DNA of 43,316 bases, from the IMG/VR virus record IMGVR_UViG_3300018074_000001, positions 1-43,316 of that record; one strand, 5' to 3'. Under the pieces are notes generated by a model. That model did no database searches, had not been told where the DNA came from, and worked only from the letters and a program-made list of their open reading frames with translations. The position numbers were made by a program, and so were the translations under genes. The DNA comes from a virus. Below are positions 4,528 to 43,316 of the stretch, one piece after another (positions within the stretch are counted from its first letter, which is position 1; the number at the start of each line of letters is the position of its first letter).

Positions 4528-4881
4528 ATGAAAAAAAGCAAGATCCCCGCCGCCAAATCCCCCCATGAAGAGGCCTTCGCCATTGCCTGGCGCGTGCTCA
4601 ACGGCCCCCCCTTCGAGCGTGAGTACAAGTTTTTCATTGGACGTGGCTGGCGCTTCGACTTCGCTTGGCCCGAAGCCAAGATTGCGGTGGAGATCGAAGG
4701 CGGAATCCATGAGGGACCGGCGCGCGGCCGCCACCTGAGGCAGGAGGGATTCTCTAACGATTGCATTAAGTACAACGAGGCAAGCTTCCTCTCCTGGAGG
4801 GTATGGAGAATTCCCCCGGCCCTCATTCAGACGGCGCTGCTTCAGCGTTTGATCCTCGAGATCCGGCGGTGTGCGCCATGA
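4528..4881 (+). CDS. PD-(D/E)XK endonuclease (Vsr/DUF559-like)
   Basis: This 117-residue protein has a restriction-enzyme-like core. D44 sits in RFDFAWP, followed by E55-x-E57 in AVEIEGG, then GRH (67-69) and a conserved DCIKYN segment with K81 and a C-terminal RVWRI strand. This pattern is seen in Vsr/DUF559-type phage nucleases, some of which cut branched DNA or mismatches. Beside RecT-like and Gp157 genes, a resolvase role is plausible; a role in the modification block is the alternative. It overlaps queD by ATGA. Confidence 0.7.
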   Translation: MKKSKIPAAKSPHEEAFAIAWRVLNGPPFEREYKFFIGRGWRFDFAWPEAKIAVEIEGGIHEGPARGRHLRQEGFSNDCIKYNEASFLSWRVWRIPPALIQTALLQRLILEIRRCAP

Positions 4882-5222
4882 TCTCCATCTTCCTCGAAGA
4901 CTCCTTTGACGCCGCGCACTGGCTGCCGAACGTGAGGGAAGACCACAAGTGCCGCCGCCCGCACGGCCACACCTACCGCATCCGCCTCGAGGTGACGGGC
5001 CAGGTGGACACCACGTCCGGCTGGATCATGGATTACGCCGAACTCCGGGAGAAGTGGCTGCCGCTCAAGGAGAAGCTCGACCACCGCTCGCTCAACGATT
5101 TCCTCCCCAATCCCACCTGCGAAGTGATTGCCGCCTGGATCGTGGCGAACCTGTGCGTTCCCGGCCTCAAGCGCCTCGAGTTGCGCGAGACCGTGAACTG
5201 CGGCGTGGTCTACACCCTATGA
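4878..5222 (+). CDS. queD: QueD-like 6-carboxy-tetrahydropterin synthase
   Basis: This 114-residue protein matches the QueD/6-pyruvoyltetrahydropterin synthase fold. Zinc ligands are H14, H29 and H31 (AAH and HGH). The catalytic cysteine is C25, with conserved LDHRSLN (H69), PTCE (80-83) and E104. QueD converts dihydroneopterin triphosphate to carboxytetrahydropterin, the second step to 7-deazaguanines (preQ0, queuosine, and deazaguanine DNA bases in some phages). FolE, QueE and QueC were not found here, so the host would have to supply those steps. The next gene, coupled by ATGA, looks like a transglycosylase, which suggests DNA rather than tRNA modification. Confidence 0.88.
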   Translation: MISIFLEDSFDAAHWLPNVREDHKCRRPHGHTYRIRLEVTGQVDTTSGWIMDYAELREKWLPLKEKLDHRSLNDFLPNPTCEVIAAWIVANLCVPGLKRLELRETVNCGVVYTL

Positions 5223-5830
5223 CCTTCCTCCTCGACACCTCCGAAGACCTGGCCGTGTGCGCCTCGGACCTCGGCGTCGAGCCAATTCAGGTGGGGCAGC
5301 TCCTCACCCCCCTCACCCGCTTCTCGAACCGGGGCGGCGCGTTTGCCATCGACAACGGCGCCTACTCCTCGTTCGATCCCGCCTCCTACCGCTCCCTGCT
5401 CAAGCGGGAATGGGAGAACCGGGGGCGGTGCCTGTTCGTGGTGGCCCCCGACATGGTAGGTAGCCAGTCCCTCACGCTTGACCTGTGGGAACGGTGGCGC
5501 AAGGATCTCTCGGGCTGGCCCAAGGTGGCGCTGGTGTTGCAGAACGGCGCCGAGCACCACCGCCTGCCTTGGCACGAGTTCGATGCCCTGTTCGTCGGCG
5601 GCGACGACGCCTTCAAGACTTCCCCGGTAGCCCGCCAGCATATCCGCGCGGCCAAGATGTTCGGCAAGTGGGTGCATGTCGGCCGGGTGAACACGCCCGA
5701 GCGCTACCGCTGGTGCGAGGAGGGGGAGGTGGACTCGATCGATGGCAGCGGGATCAGCCAGTACTCGAGTATGCGCGCCTCCCTCACCGGCCACGCTCAG
5801 GTGCCGCTCGATCTGGAGGTTGCGCTATGA
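5219..5830 (+). CDS. compact TGT/DpdA-like deazaguanine transglycosylase candidate
   Basis: This 203-residue protein resembles the shortened tRNA-guanine-transglycosylase relatives found in phages (DpdA-like). D45 in IDNGAYSSF corresponds to the TGT DSGGFQ region. FVVAPDMVGS gives a TIM-barrel strand, ALFVGGDD matches the base-binding glycine loop, and VDSIDGSG places D175 where TGT has its nucleophile. TGT is about 370 residues, so this is a minimal version lacking the zinc domain. DpdA enzymes swap guanine in DNA for preQ0 or related bases. Direct coupling to queD (ATGA at 5219) strongly supports a shared pathway. The exact base made is unknown. Confidence 0.65.
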   Translation: MTFLLDTSEDLAVCASDLGVEPIQVGQLLTPLTRFSNRGGAFAIDNGAYSSFDPASYRSLLKREWENRGRCLFVVAPDMVGSQSLTLDLWERWRKDLSGWPKVALVLQNGAEHHRLPWHEFDALFVGGDDAFKTSPVARQHIRAAKMFGKWVHVGRVNTPERYRWCEEGEVDSIDGSGISQYSSMRASLTGHAQVPLDLEVAL

Positions 5831-6036
5831 GCAAACCACTCGGATTGTCGCAGCAGGACTACGAGGAGCTTGAAAAACCCCGGCCGGCGCCGGAACCGCT
5901 TTCCCCTTTGCCCGGCCTGAGCCTGTGGGATAACTGCTTGTGGGTCATCGCCTGCCTCACCTTTCTGGTATGCCTCGGCTTCTTCTTCGTTACTGCACTG
6001 TTGTGCAGGATGGTCACGGGGAGGTGGCCGCGATGA
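5827..6036 (+). CDS. single-pass membrane protein (69 aa)
   Basis: The start overlaps the upstream stop (ATGA). The 69-residue product has a polar, proline-rich N-terminus and then one long hydrophobic segment (about residues 36-60), ending in RMVTGRWPR. It would be inserted with a short basic tail. Function unknown. It is co-translated with the DpdA-like gene, though no mechanistic link is evident. Confidence 0.6.
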   Translation: MSKPLGLSQQDYEELEKPRPAPEPLSPLPGLSLWDNCLWVIACLTFLVCLGFFFVTALLCRMVTGRWPR

Positions 6037-6230
6037 TCATCACGTTCCACGAACATAACCTGCCCGCCGGGATCAAGCCCTACACCATCGAGGTCAACTC
6101 GATCCTCGGCACTGTCAACGAGGATAGCGGGGCGCTCGCCGTCCTCCTGGCTCTGCCGTATGGCGAATGGCAGCTCACCGTCACCAACCATACCGAGGTC
6201 TACCTCGGCCGCCTCACGGTGGAACCATGA
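6033..6230 (+). CDS. hypothetical protein (65 aa)
   Basis: ATG at 6033 overlaps the previous TGA. The 65-residue product appears all-beta: alternating hydrophobic strands, with no cysteines and no membrane segment. It is not assigned to any family. It is part of the unbroken ATGA chain from 4297 to 7225. Confidence 0.6.
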   Translation: MIITFHEHNLPAGIKPYTIEVNSILGTVNEDSGALAVLLALPYGEWQLTVTNHTEVYLGRLTVEP

Positions 6231-6412
6231 TCATCCTCAATTGCCTCGAGTTGACCCGCATGCCCGCGCTCGCCTCGCATGCCGATCCGGATGGCTCGGT
6301 GGTGGTCACCACCCTCGGCAGCCGGGTGCGCCTCGATTCTAAGAACCTCAAGCTTCAAGTGCTGGTCCGTATCGCATTAAGTCTGGCTTTAGGAAGGCAT
6401 TCGAAACCATGA
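6227..6412 (+). CDS. hypothetical protein (61 aa)
   Basis: ATG at 6227 overlaps the upstream TGA. The 61-residue product ends in LALGRHSKP. The underlying 16 bases (6384-6399) recur at the end of the Mom-like gene (7200-7215), in the same frame. Here the repeat also contains the AGGAAGG ribosome-binding site for the next gene. No family was recognised. Confidence 0.55.
   Translation: MIILNCLELTRMPALASHADPDGSVVVTTLGSRVRLDSKNLKLQVLVRIALSLALGRHSKP
6384..6399 (+). repeat. 16-bp direct repeat, copy 1
   Basis: The 16-mer TGGCTTTAGGAAGGCA occurs here and at 7200-7215. The two copies bracket the three genes at 6409-7225, and both encode LALGR near the C-terminus of a protein. It could be a recombination footprint that brought in or duplicated that block. 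Confidence 0.85.
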
Positions 6413-6561
6413 CCGAAGAGCAACTCGACTATCTCCGGCGCCTGCATACCATCATGCAACTGGTGCTCTCATCGCTCAGCAACGAGCCGCTTTCGCGTCC
6501 GTTCTGGCTCGACAAGCTCGAGCAACTGTCGGTAGCGGCTATCAAGGCAGGTGTCCAATGA
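6409..6561 (+). CDS. small helical protein (50 aa)
   Basis: ATG at 6409 overlaps the previous TGA, and AGGAAGG lies 11 bases upstream. The 50-residue product is predicted helical (MTEEQLDYLRRLHTIMQLVL, then a second helix). Family not recognised. Its stop overlaps the next start by ATGA at 6558. Confidence 0.6.
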   Translation: MTEEQLDYLRRLHTIMQLVLSSLSNEPLSRPFWLDKLEQLSVAAIKAGVQ

Positions 6562-6749
6562 CCACTACTCCACCCAAGACGTATTTAGGCGACGCCGTAT
6601 ACGCCGAATGGGAAAACGGAGTGCTAAAACTCACGACGAGCCACGGCATCGGCGACACCAACACGATCTATCTCGAATTGGAAGTTCTCGACAGCTTGAA
6701 GAGCTATCTGAAGACGAGCGGGGATCTGCTGCGGGAGACCGCCACATGA
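6558..6749 (+). CDS. conserved-looking small phage protein (63 aa)
   Basis: ATG at 6558 overlaps the upstream stop. The 63-residue product has the pattern YLGDAVYAEWENG, then a beta pair with HG, then IYLELEVLDSLKSYL. I recall this as a widespread conserved hypothetical phage protein of unknown function. It has no catalytic motif. It is coupled by ATGA to the Mom-like gene. Confidence 0.65.
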   Translation: MTTTPPKTYLGDAVYAEWENGVLKLTTSHGIGDTNTIYLELEVLDSLKSYLKTSGDLLRETAT

Positions 6750-7225
6750 GACTGGCCTTCACGGATGAGCTCATCGTTACCAACCACTTCGACGGAGAGA
6801 TGTCGATGCTCGCCGACCGCCATTACTCCCGGCGCACGGTGGGCGCGCGGCAGTTCCTCTACTCAGGGCGCAAGCTCGTCATCCGGGACGCCGCCGGGGA
6901 CGTGCTCTTCGGCTGGCTGTATCCGCGCGAGGACATGCGGATGGACGCTCAGACCGGCTACAACTGCGCGATCTTCCGCAACGAATCCAGCCGCCGGTCG
7001 AGCGACATCATCCTCGAATGCGAGGCGATTGCCTTCGAGAAGTGGGGCCCGAACCGGCTGTACACCTACGTCGATCCGGCCAAGATCCGCAGCGCCAATC
7101 CCGGCTACTGCTTCAAGCAGGCAGGGTGGAAGACGGTGCGCCGCGCCGACGGCAGCGTCCACGTCAGTCAGGCAGGCCAGCACCTGTTATACAAACCGTT
7201 GGCTTTAGGAAGGCAGAACAAGTAG
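6746..7225 (+). CDS. Mom/GNAT-like acyltransferase candidate
   Basis: This 159-residue protein resembles a GNAT-fold group that includes phage Mu Mom, which adds a methylcarbamoyl group to adenine in DNA. The signature here is DRHYSRR (24-30), central strands LVIRDAAGDVLFGWLY, an IFRNESSRRSS segment, and YTYVDPAKIRSANPGYCF (106-123) followed by AGWK, resembling the Mom region YADPD...T-x-Y-x-A. I recall similar proteins in actinophages, annotated only as hypothetical. Placement two kilobases after QueD/DpdA-like genes favours DNA base hypermodification. An ordinary N-acetyltransferase is the main alternative. Confidence 0.5.
   Translation: MRLAFTDELIVTNHFDGEMSMLADRHYSRRTVGARQFLYSGRKLVIRDAAGDVLFGWLYPREDMRMDAQTGYNCAIFRNESSRRSSDIILECEAIAFEKWGPNRLYTYVDPAKIRSANPGYCFKQAGWKTVRRADGSVHVSQAGQHLLYKPLALGRQNK
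7200..7215 (+). repeat. 16-bp direct repeat, copy 2
   Basis: This is an exact second copy of TGGCTTTAGGAAGGCA (first at 6384-6399), lying in the last codons of the Mom-like gene. Here the AGGAAGG would serve no obvious start codon, except a possible GTG at 7228 (14 bases away, too far to be convincing). Confidence 0.85.
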
Positions 7226-7393
7226 CCGTGGGTTTGATCGTAAAACTATTGCCATCAACAGCATCTAGAGTTAGACTTATCCGTCGGCCAAAGCAGCGAG
7301 GGTAGCTCCCCCGTTGTTCGACGGAATCTGCCGGGACTACGGCGGGCTGTTCCTTATCCAGCCCGCCCCCGGTGAGCCAGATAAGGAATGTCC
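7226..7393 (+). promoter_or_regulatory. structured 5' leader with H-type pseudoknot over the ribosome-binding site
   Basis: This 168-base gap precedes the replication initiator. A 7-bp stem pairs 7280-7286 with 7319-7325. A perfect 9-bp hairpin, GGCGGGCTG (7341-7349) with CAGCCCGCC (7359-7367), follows. Its 9-base loop TTCCTTATC (7350-7358) is perfectly complementary to GATAAGGAA (7380-7388), which contains the Shine-Dalgarno sequence. The geometry is that of an H-type pseudoknot that would hide the ribosome-binding site. There is no T-run, so it is not a rho-independent terminator. A 25-codon open frame from GTG 7228 to 7305 could be a leader peptide but is weak. Confidence 0.6.
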
Positions 7394-42885: not shown

Positions 42886-43089
42886 ATGAACAGACAATTT
42901 TTATTGACAAGTATCGCGACGGCGGAGGCCATCAGCGATAGCGCGAAGACTCCGCGCCAAGCGCTGACATGGTCGGCGGAGGGGCGGGATTGGCGGGAGA
43001 AAGCCGGAAAGCTTACCGACGAGGAAGAAACGGAAGTAGAGCGATTACGGGAAGAAACGCGCGTAAAGCTCGCCGAGGCCGCGCTGTGA
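42886..43089 (+). CDS. small charged protein before the methyltransferase (67 aa)
   Basis: The start is set by the fourth AAAGGATCACACAC module. The 67-residue product ends in a strongly charged helix (DEEETEVERLREETRVKLAE). Its TGA overlaps the GTG of the methyltransferase (GTGA). No family was recognised. Confidence 0.65.
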   Translation: MNRQFLLTSIATAEAISDSAKTPRQALTWSAEGRDWREKAGKLTDEEETEVERLREETRVKLAEAAL

Positions 43090-43316
43090 TCTATCACGGC
43101 GACGCTCTCGAAACCCTCCAGACCCTGCCGAGTGAATCGGTCCACTGCGCGGTCACTTCGCCGCCCTACTACGGGCTGCGCGATTACGGGATCGCCGGCC
43201 AAATCGGGCGCGAGATATCGCCCGATGAATACGTGGCTCGCCTCGTCGAGGTGTTCGCCGAGGTGCGGCGCGTATTGCGTCCCGATGGCACGCTCTGGGT
43301 CAATATCGGCGATTCC
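43086..43316 (+). CDS. DNA methyltransferase, beta class (5' part; continues at base 1)
   Basis: GTG 43086 overlaps the previous TGA (GTGA), a common start type here. This part encodes VIYHGDALETLQTLPSESVH and then the catalytic TSPPYYGLRDYG motif. After codon 36 the sequence enters the terminal repeat (43194-43316), identical to bases 1-123, and continues at 1-774 to give a 293-residue enzyme. Confidence 0.9.
   Translation, partial: MIYHGDALETLQTLPSESVHCAVTSPPYYGLRDYGIAGQIGREISPDEYVARLVEVFAEVRRVLRPDGTLWVNIGDS
43194..43316. repeat. 123-bp terminal direct repeat, right copy
   Basis: Identical to bases 1-123. Removing one copy gives a circular sequence of 43,193 bp. Confidence 0.95.

Follow-up and report, generated by a model that had tools for sequence, protein, structure and literature searches.

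The window analysed here is the whole IMG/VR virus record IMGVR_UViG_3300018074_000001 (positions 1–43,316), and its plus strand carries at 4878–5830 two overlapping genes that we read, with a probability of about 0.72, as a 7-deazaguanine DNA-modification module. The first gene (4878–5222) encodes QueD, a 6-carboxytetrahydropterin synthase of 114 residues, and the second (5219–5830) encodes a 203-residue single-domain TIM barrel of the tRNA-guanine transglycosylase (TGT)/DpdA superfamily, which we call mini-DpdA. In the proposed mechanism, phage QueD would make 6-carboxytetrahydropterin and so increase the flux into the host queuosine-precursor pathway, with the host supplying FolE, QueE and QueC. 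We infer that mini-DpdA would then remove guanine from phage DNA and insert preQ0 or a close derivative, with D45 and D175 acting as the TGT-type acid pair, and that this base exchange would protect phage DNA from host nucleases.

QueD starts at the ATG at 4878, and its gene is coupled to that of mini-DpdA by an ATGA overlap at 5219–5222. The protein matches PTPS at 1.5e-24 and passes TIGR03367 with 90.2 bits (NCBI cut-off 89.25). It aligns to the QueD chains in the PDB, and its catalytic and metal residues are intact, with H14, C25, H29, H31, D68, H69 and E104 all present. A preliminary description of this DNA had listed these residues, apart from D68, and the ATGA coupling, and both are confirmed, as are all of its open reading frames and coordinates.

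The same description called the 203-residue protein TGT/DpdA-like, with D45 and D175 at the catalytic places, and this assignment is borne out by profile comparison, by the predicted barrel and by the gene neighbours. The protein matches phrog_15826 (7e-35), which is annotated as of unknown function. This large family is almost wholly viral, and viral contigs contain some 400 or more relatives; one motif pattern scanned across 84,980 species genomes found a single match, on a contig of a Planctomycetaceae metagenome-assembled genome. No Pfam family scored above cut-off, and sequence searches of the PDB with single proteins and with profiles gave no match for mini-DpdA and nothing useful for the GNAT protein described below. 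The mini-DpdA motifs are DNG (45–47), PDMVG (77–81), QNG (108–110), GG (127–128), HVGRVN (153–158) and DG (175–176). Among 78 members of the family, D45 is conserved in 77 and H153 and D175 in all 78; D78, R156 and N158 are likewise invariant or almost invariant. AlphaFold predicts a single-domain barrel with a local confidence score (pLDDT) of 93.6 and a global score (pTM) of 0.89, and Foldseek returned many TIM barrels for this model, including the human TGT QTRT1. The predicted fold thus agrees with TGT and DpdA, but does not by itself pick out the family.

Comparison of the mini-DpdA profile with single DpdA sequences in HHalign was too weak, and a profile–profile comparison was used instead, with a DpdA profile built from 12 phage DpdA proteins (9g, the Rosebush group and others). 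The two profiles matched with P = 1.2e-5 and a probability of 81%, and this match is the decisive evidence from sequence. Its score was 38.6; the highest among 30 column-shuffled controls was 22.5, the reversed profile gave 18.3 and none of eight unrelated profiles exceeded 17.0. The first three motifs fall within the significant local match. In a global alignment the order is kept throughout, with D45 opposite D72 of 9g, PDxVG opposite LDxIGD, GG opposite GG, H153 opposite H196 and D175 opposite D215; these residues are paired by motif order, and the last two pairs are approximate. Searched at E 0.1, the mini-DpdA profile found no match in 9g, Eaglehorse (a Rosebush species), nt-1, CP220, HVTV-1, 7-11 or CAjan. 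It is well supported that mini-DpdA is a compact 7-deazaguanine transglycosylase distinct from the 9g-type DpdA.

The neighbours of the gene link it to the preQ0 pathway. Relatives clustered at 70% identity gave 40 clusters, and genes within 4 kb were counted with hidden Markov models seeded from the same loci, the identities being confirmed independently by Pfam; 29 loci fetched with the GNAT gene served as controls. A gene for preQ0 synthesis or transport (QueD, QueC, QueE, FolE or YhhQ) was found in 21 of the 40 clusters, as compared to none of the 29 controls. QueD occurred near mini-DpdA in 13 clusters; the corresponding counts were 6 for a YhhQ/Vut_1 transporter, 5 for QueC, 4 for QueE and 3 for FolE. 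Pfam identified QueC 17 times, QueD 8 times, radical SAM 3 times and Vut_1/YhhQ twice among 72 upstream genes, and QueD 5 times, Vut_1 4 times and QueC twice among 47 downstream genes. The QueD–mini-DpdA pair is kept in the relatives L003 (91% mini-DpdA identity), L005, L016 (61%), L008 (44%) and L011 (43%). In L008 and L108 the operon order is QueD–mini-DpdA–QueC–QueE, and in L011 it is QueD–mini-DpdA–QueE–QueC–FolE; no canonical DpdA was detected on these three metagenomic contigs, which are fragments.

In three phage isolates, SHIN8, R29Z and Sonali, mini-DpdA is found in addition to a canonical DpdA and preQ0 genes, near known gene sets for 7-deazaguanine in DNA. The DNA of CAjan and Rosebush contains dPreQ0 (PMC6884629), so the gene sets of these isolates are of the DNA-modifying kind. 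CAjan, which is in the same genus as SHIN8, has no detectable mini-DpdA. In SHIN8 (L048:4048-7560) and R29Z (L050:3793-7898), mini-DpdA lies between a polymerase clamp gene, annotated as such in SHIN8, and the DNA polymerase gene. Two overlapping frames, rather than one, make up the mini-DpdA reading in Escherichia phage SHIN8 (L048:5001-5593) and also in phiG7, so that these Seurat-type phages may have a frameshifted or broken gene.

A Vut_1/YhhQ-type transporter gene lies near mini-DpdA in GreaseLightnin (L049, near gp55) and in ReqiPine5 (L054:4411-4944, gp04). The Mycobacterium host of one such transporter-carrying actinobacteriophage has no queuosine pathway. The pairing suggests that a scavenged precursor is used. 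A family of 80-residue proteins, most of them in phrog_37496, that show the pattern CP..D...VEDI...QE was also seen beside mini-DpdA, in 7 of the 40 clusters (L107:6588-6830, L104:6615-6863, L081:6594-6839, L012:6620-6940 and L060:2485-2733).

Several observations weigh against a DNA-modifying module. The fold search proposed for 5219–5830 did return TIM barrels with a TGT among them, but on its own it points to generic TIM barrels, with QTRT1 only at rank 11. The Pfam TGT model (PF01702) does not match mini-DpdA, and the same model misses the 9g DpdA too. Mini-DpdA is without the C-terminal part of DpdA and without the CxCxxC...H zinc site of TGT, which was sought among its 203 residues and is lacking, only three scattered cysteines being present. 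In 19 of the 40 clusters there was no pathway gene within 4 kb, and we found no nucleoside analysis of any phage with mini-DpdA as its only DpdA. The three isolates carry both enzymes, and the job of mini-DpdA may therefore differ from that of DpdA; their co-occurrence suggests a possible difference between the two enzymes in target or in product.

Mini-DpdA may instead be a small TGT that acts on host or phage tRNA and alters translation during infection, with QueD in support. The prototype of the superfamily is a tRNA-guanine transglycosylase, submitters have labelled several homologues accordingly, and the presence of mini-DpdA alongside DpdA in three phages would fit such a role. However, no tRNA gene was found in the window, the TGT zinc motif is missing, the phage DpdA motifs including the conserved histidine are matched, the gene stands just before the DNA polymerase gene in SHIN8 and R29Z, and many hosts have a TGT of their own. 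On this evidence we regard a tRNA substrate as unlikely. Another explanation, which we consider very unlikely, places mini-DpdA within the 7-deazaguanine pathway as a TIM-barrel enzyme whose substrate is a free base, nucleoside or nucleotide rather than polymeric DNA, for example as a deoxyribosyltransferase or as a salvage or editing hydrolase. Its small size, with no extra DNA-binding domain, the single pathway genes or YhhQ-type transporter often found beside it, and the canonical DpdA also present in three isolates are consistent with this. Against it, mini-DpdA is the sole DpdA-type gene detected on the three contigs with preQ0 operons, and its motifs align with those of the DNA-acting DpdA family.

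In the two-gene module, the completion of preQ0 would fall to the host. The first 123 bp of the window are repeated exactly and in direct orientation at its end (1–123 and 43,194–43,316), so the genome, about 43.2 kb, is probably circularly complete. QueC, radical SAM/QueE, FolE and a canonical DpdA were each searched for in the window and none was found; a DpdA profile also gave no match there. Given the probable completeness of the genome, FolE, QueE and QueC would be truly absent from it, as had been proposed, and preQ0 would therefore have to come from the host; that the host finishes preQ0 is a reasonable inference. Neither a preQ1 riboswitch nor any other Rfam RNA was found in the window and nine relatives. 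A terminase search gave distant matches only. The beta-class DNA methyltransferase of the preliminary description is also present. It is an N6/N4 enzyme of 332 residues when read across the contig ends, starting at 42,969–43,316 on the plus strand (a stretch that takes in the terminal 123 bp, identical to positions 1–123), with its C-terminal part at 1–774 on the same strand. TSPPYYGLRDY precedes FGAGTT, which is the beta-class motif order. This gene lies about 4 kb upstream of the QueD, mini-DpdA and GNAT cluster.

The GNAT gene (6746–7225, plus strand) encodes an acyltransferase-like protein of 159 residues that belongs to phrog_24928. It had been described as Mom/GNAT-like and as part of one composite modification system with QueD and mini-DpdA. 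The GNAT part of this description stands: the AlphaFold model has a pLDDT of 90.1, its top Foldseek matches were mostly GNAT acyltransferases, and the protein carries DRHYSRR, of which the HYSRR stretch is common to Mu Mom. The second motif, given as YADPD-like, actually reads YTYVDPAK, and the Mom part is not supported. The Pfam (PF25680) and PHROG (phrog_1384) Mom models do not match the protein, while Mu Mom matches both. In hhalign the GNAT family scored 24.5 against Mom, barely above the shuffled maximum of 21.8 and the reversed control at 21.7, and over 33 columns only. Residues invariant in Mom, such as D149 and Y159, are not retained across the GNAT family; by a correspondence made by eye, D149 (SFAD) has no invariant counterpart, as several members carry N, A, R or another residue at the corresponding place in YVDP. 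After Pfam, PHROGs, hhalign and Foldseek (PDB and a viral library), membership of the Mom family is unsupported.

A composite system, in which the modification of guanine by mini-DpdA would be coordinated with the acylation of adenine, or of the inserted deazaguanine, by a Mom-like GNAT, gains something from the gene layout. All genes lie on the same strand and overlap, and no terminator-like site was found on the plus strand between 4878 and 7225, the next being at 7327, although such sites are hardly commoner than in shuffled sequence. The GNAT fold, the shared HYSRR and the co-occurrence of both genes in the L016 and L024 records point the same way, as do two GNAT relatives fused to a helicase C-terminal/N6-N4 DNA methyltransferase protein (L038:5971-8013 and L044:5905-7920). 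On the other hand, GNAT was present in only 3 of 56 mini-DpdA records, and mini-DpdA in only 3 of 33 records bearing GNAT. The nearest relative, G001, whose mini-DpdA is 91% and QueD 85% identical, has no GNAT, and in L016 about 4 kb separates the two genes, which lie on different strands. Together with the failure of both Mom models, this makes a coordinated system very doubtful. A search for a methyltransferase gene that regularly neighbours the GNAT family found none; the two fusions leave room for a DNA-modification role of GNAT itself. The GNAT gene is best regarded as an accessory one apart from the two-gene module, and the Mom link is probably incidental. In a further reading, which is extremely unlikely, mini-DpdA would represent a minimal DpdA subfamily that has a target range of its own, and in this phage GNAT would acylate either adenine or the amine of a preQ1-type base placed in the DNA, so that the genome would be doubly modified or hypermodified.

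Between mini-DpdA and GNAT there are, as described before, four small genes (5827-6036, 6033-6230, 6227-6412 and 6409-6561) and one conserved small gene (6558-6749), all on the plus strand and each overlapping the next. The fifth, which overlaps the GNAT gene, matches phrog_11545 (E 4e-4), and some of the five recur in the relative L003. Immediately upstream of QueD, a gene at 4528–4881 on the plus strand encodes a small endonuclease-like protein of 117 residues, with a match to phrog_503 (7.9e-26) and a weak one to DUF559. In the closest relatives a phrog_503 gene lies at most about 2 kb from QueD and mini-DpdA (L003:4692, L005:6841 and L016:11344). This protein may be a nuclease that leaves modified DNA uncut.

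The superfamily assignment of mini-DpdA is not new, because homologues in actinobacteriophages are already annotated as DpdA-like tRNA-guanine transglycosylase. What appears to be new, judged from sequence, is a distinct minimal subfamily that is systematically linked to preQ0 synthesis and uptake, and this subfamily may already be named in 2023 work on further DpdA subfamilies, which limits the novelty. For phrog_15826 the module provides a testable function, that of a 200-residue transglycosylase. If this is true, many phages without canonical DpdA would become linked to 7-deazaguanine DNA, and the pairing with a transporter predicts that some viruses modify their DNA with a scavenged precursor even in hosts that lack the pathway. 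A minimal base-swapping enzyme for DNA would also be a handy labelling tool.

We compared these proteins with known systems. DpdA of the type carried by phages 9g, CAjan and Rosebush (Hutinet et al., 2019, PMC6884629) has the same motif order as mini-DpdA (D, LDxIGD/PDxVG, GG, H, D) and is likewise encoded with preQ0 pathway genes. It has about 300–350 residues as compared to 203 and is a separate family by sequence, and in the genome studied here QueD is the only phage-encoded pathway gene. Hutinet et al. found YhhQ uncorrelated with any phage group (PMC6884629), whereas a YhhQ-type transporter recurs beside mini-DpdA. The actinobacteriophage proteins labelled DpdA-like tRNA-guanine transglycosylase (GreaseLightnin gp55, Sonali gp81 and Aoka gp40) are direct homologues of about 200 residues, with 37–42% identity in tblastn; their function label is annotation only, and the neighbour in GreaseLightnin and ReqiPine5 is the Vut_1/YhhQ-type transporter, not QueD. 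Bacterial TGT and human QTRT1 (PF01702) share the TIM-barrel fold and comparable catalytic aspartates with mini-DpdA, which differs from them in having no Pfam TGT match and no zinc motif, and in being little over half as long. Mu Mom (PF25680, phrog_1384) and the 6746–7225 protein share the GNAT superfamily and HYSRR, but Mom has 241 residues to the 159 of the phrog_24928 protein, which does not match the Mom models and does not conserve D149.

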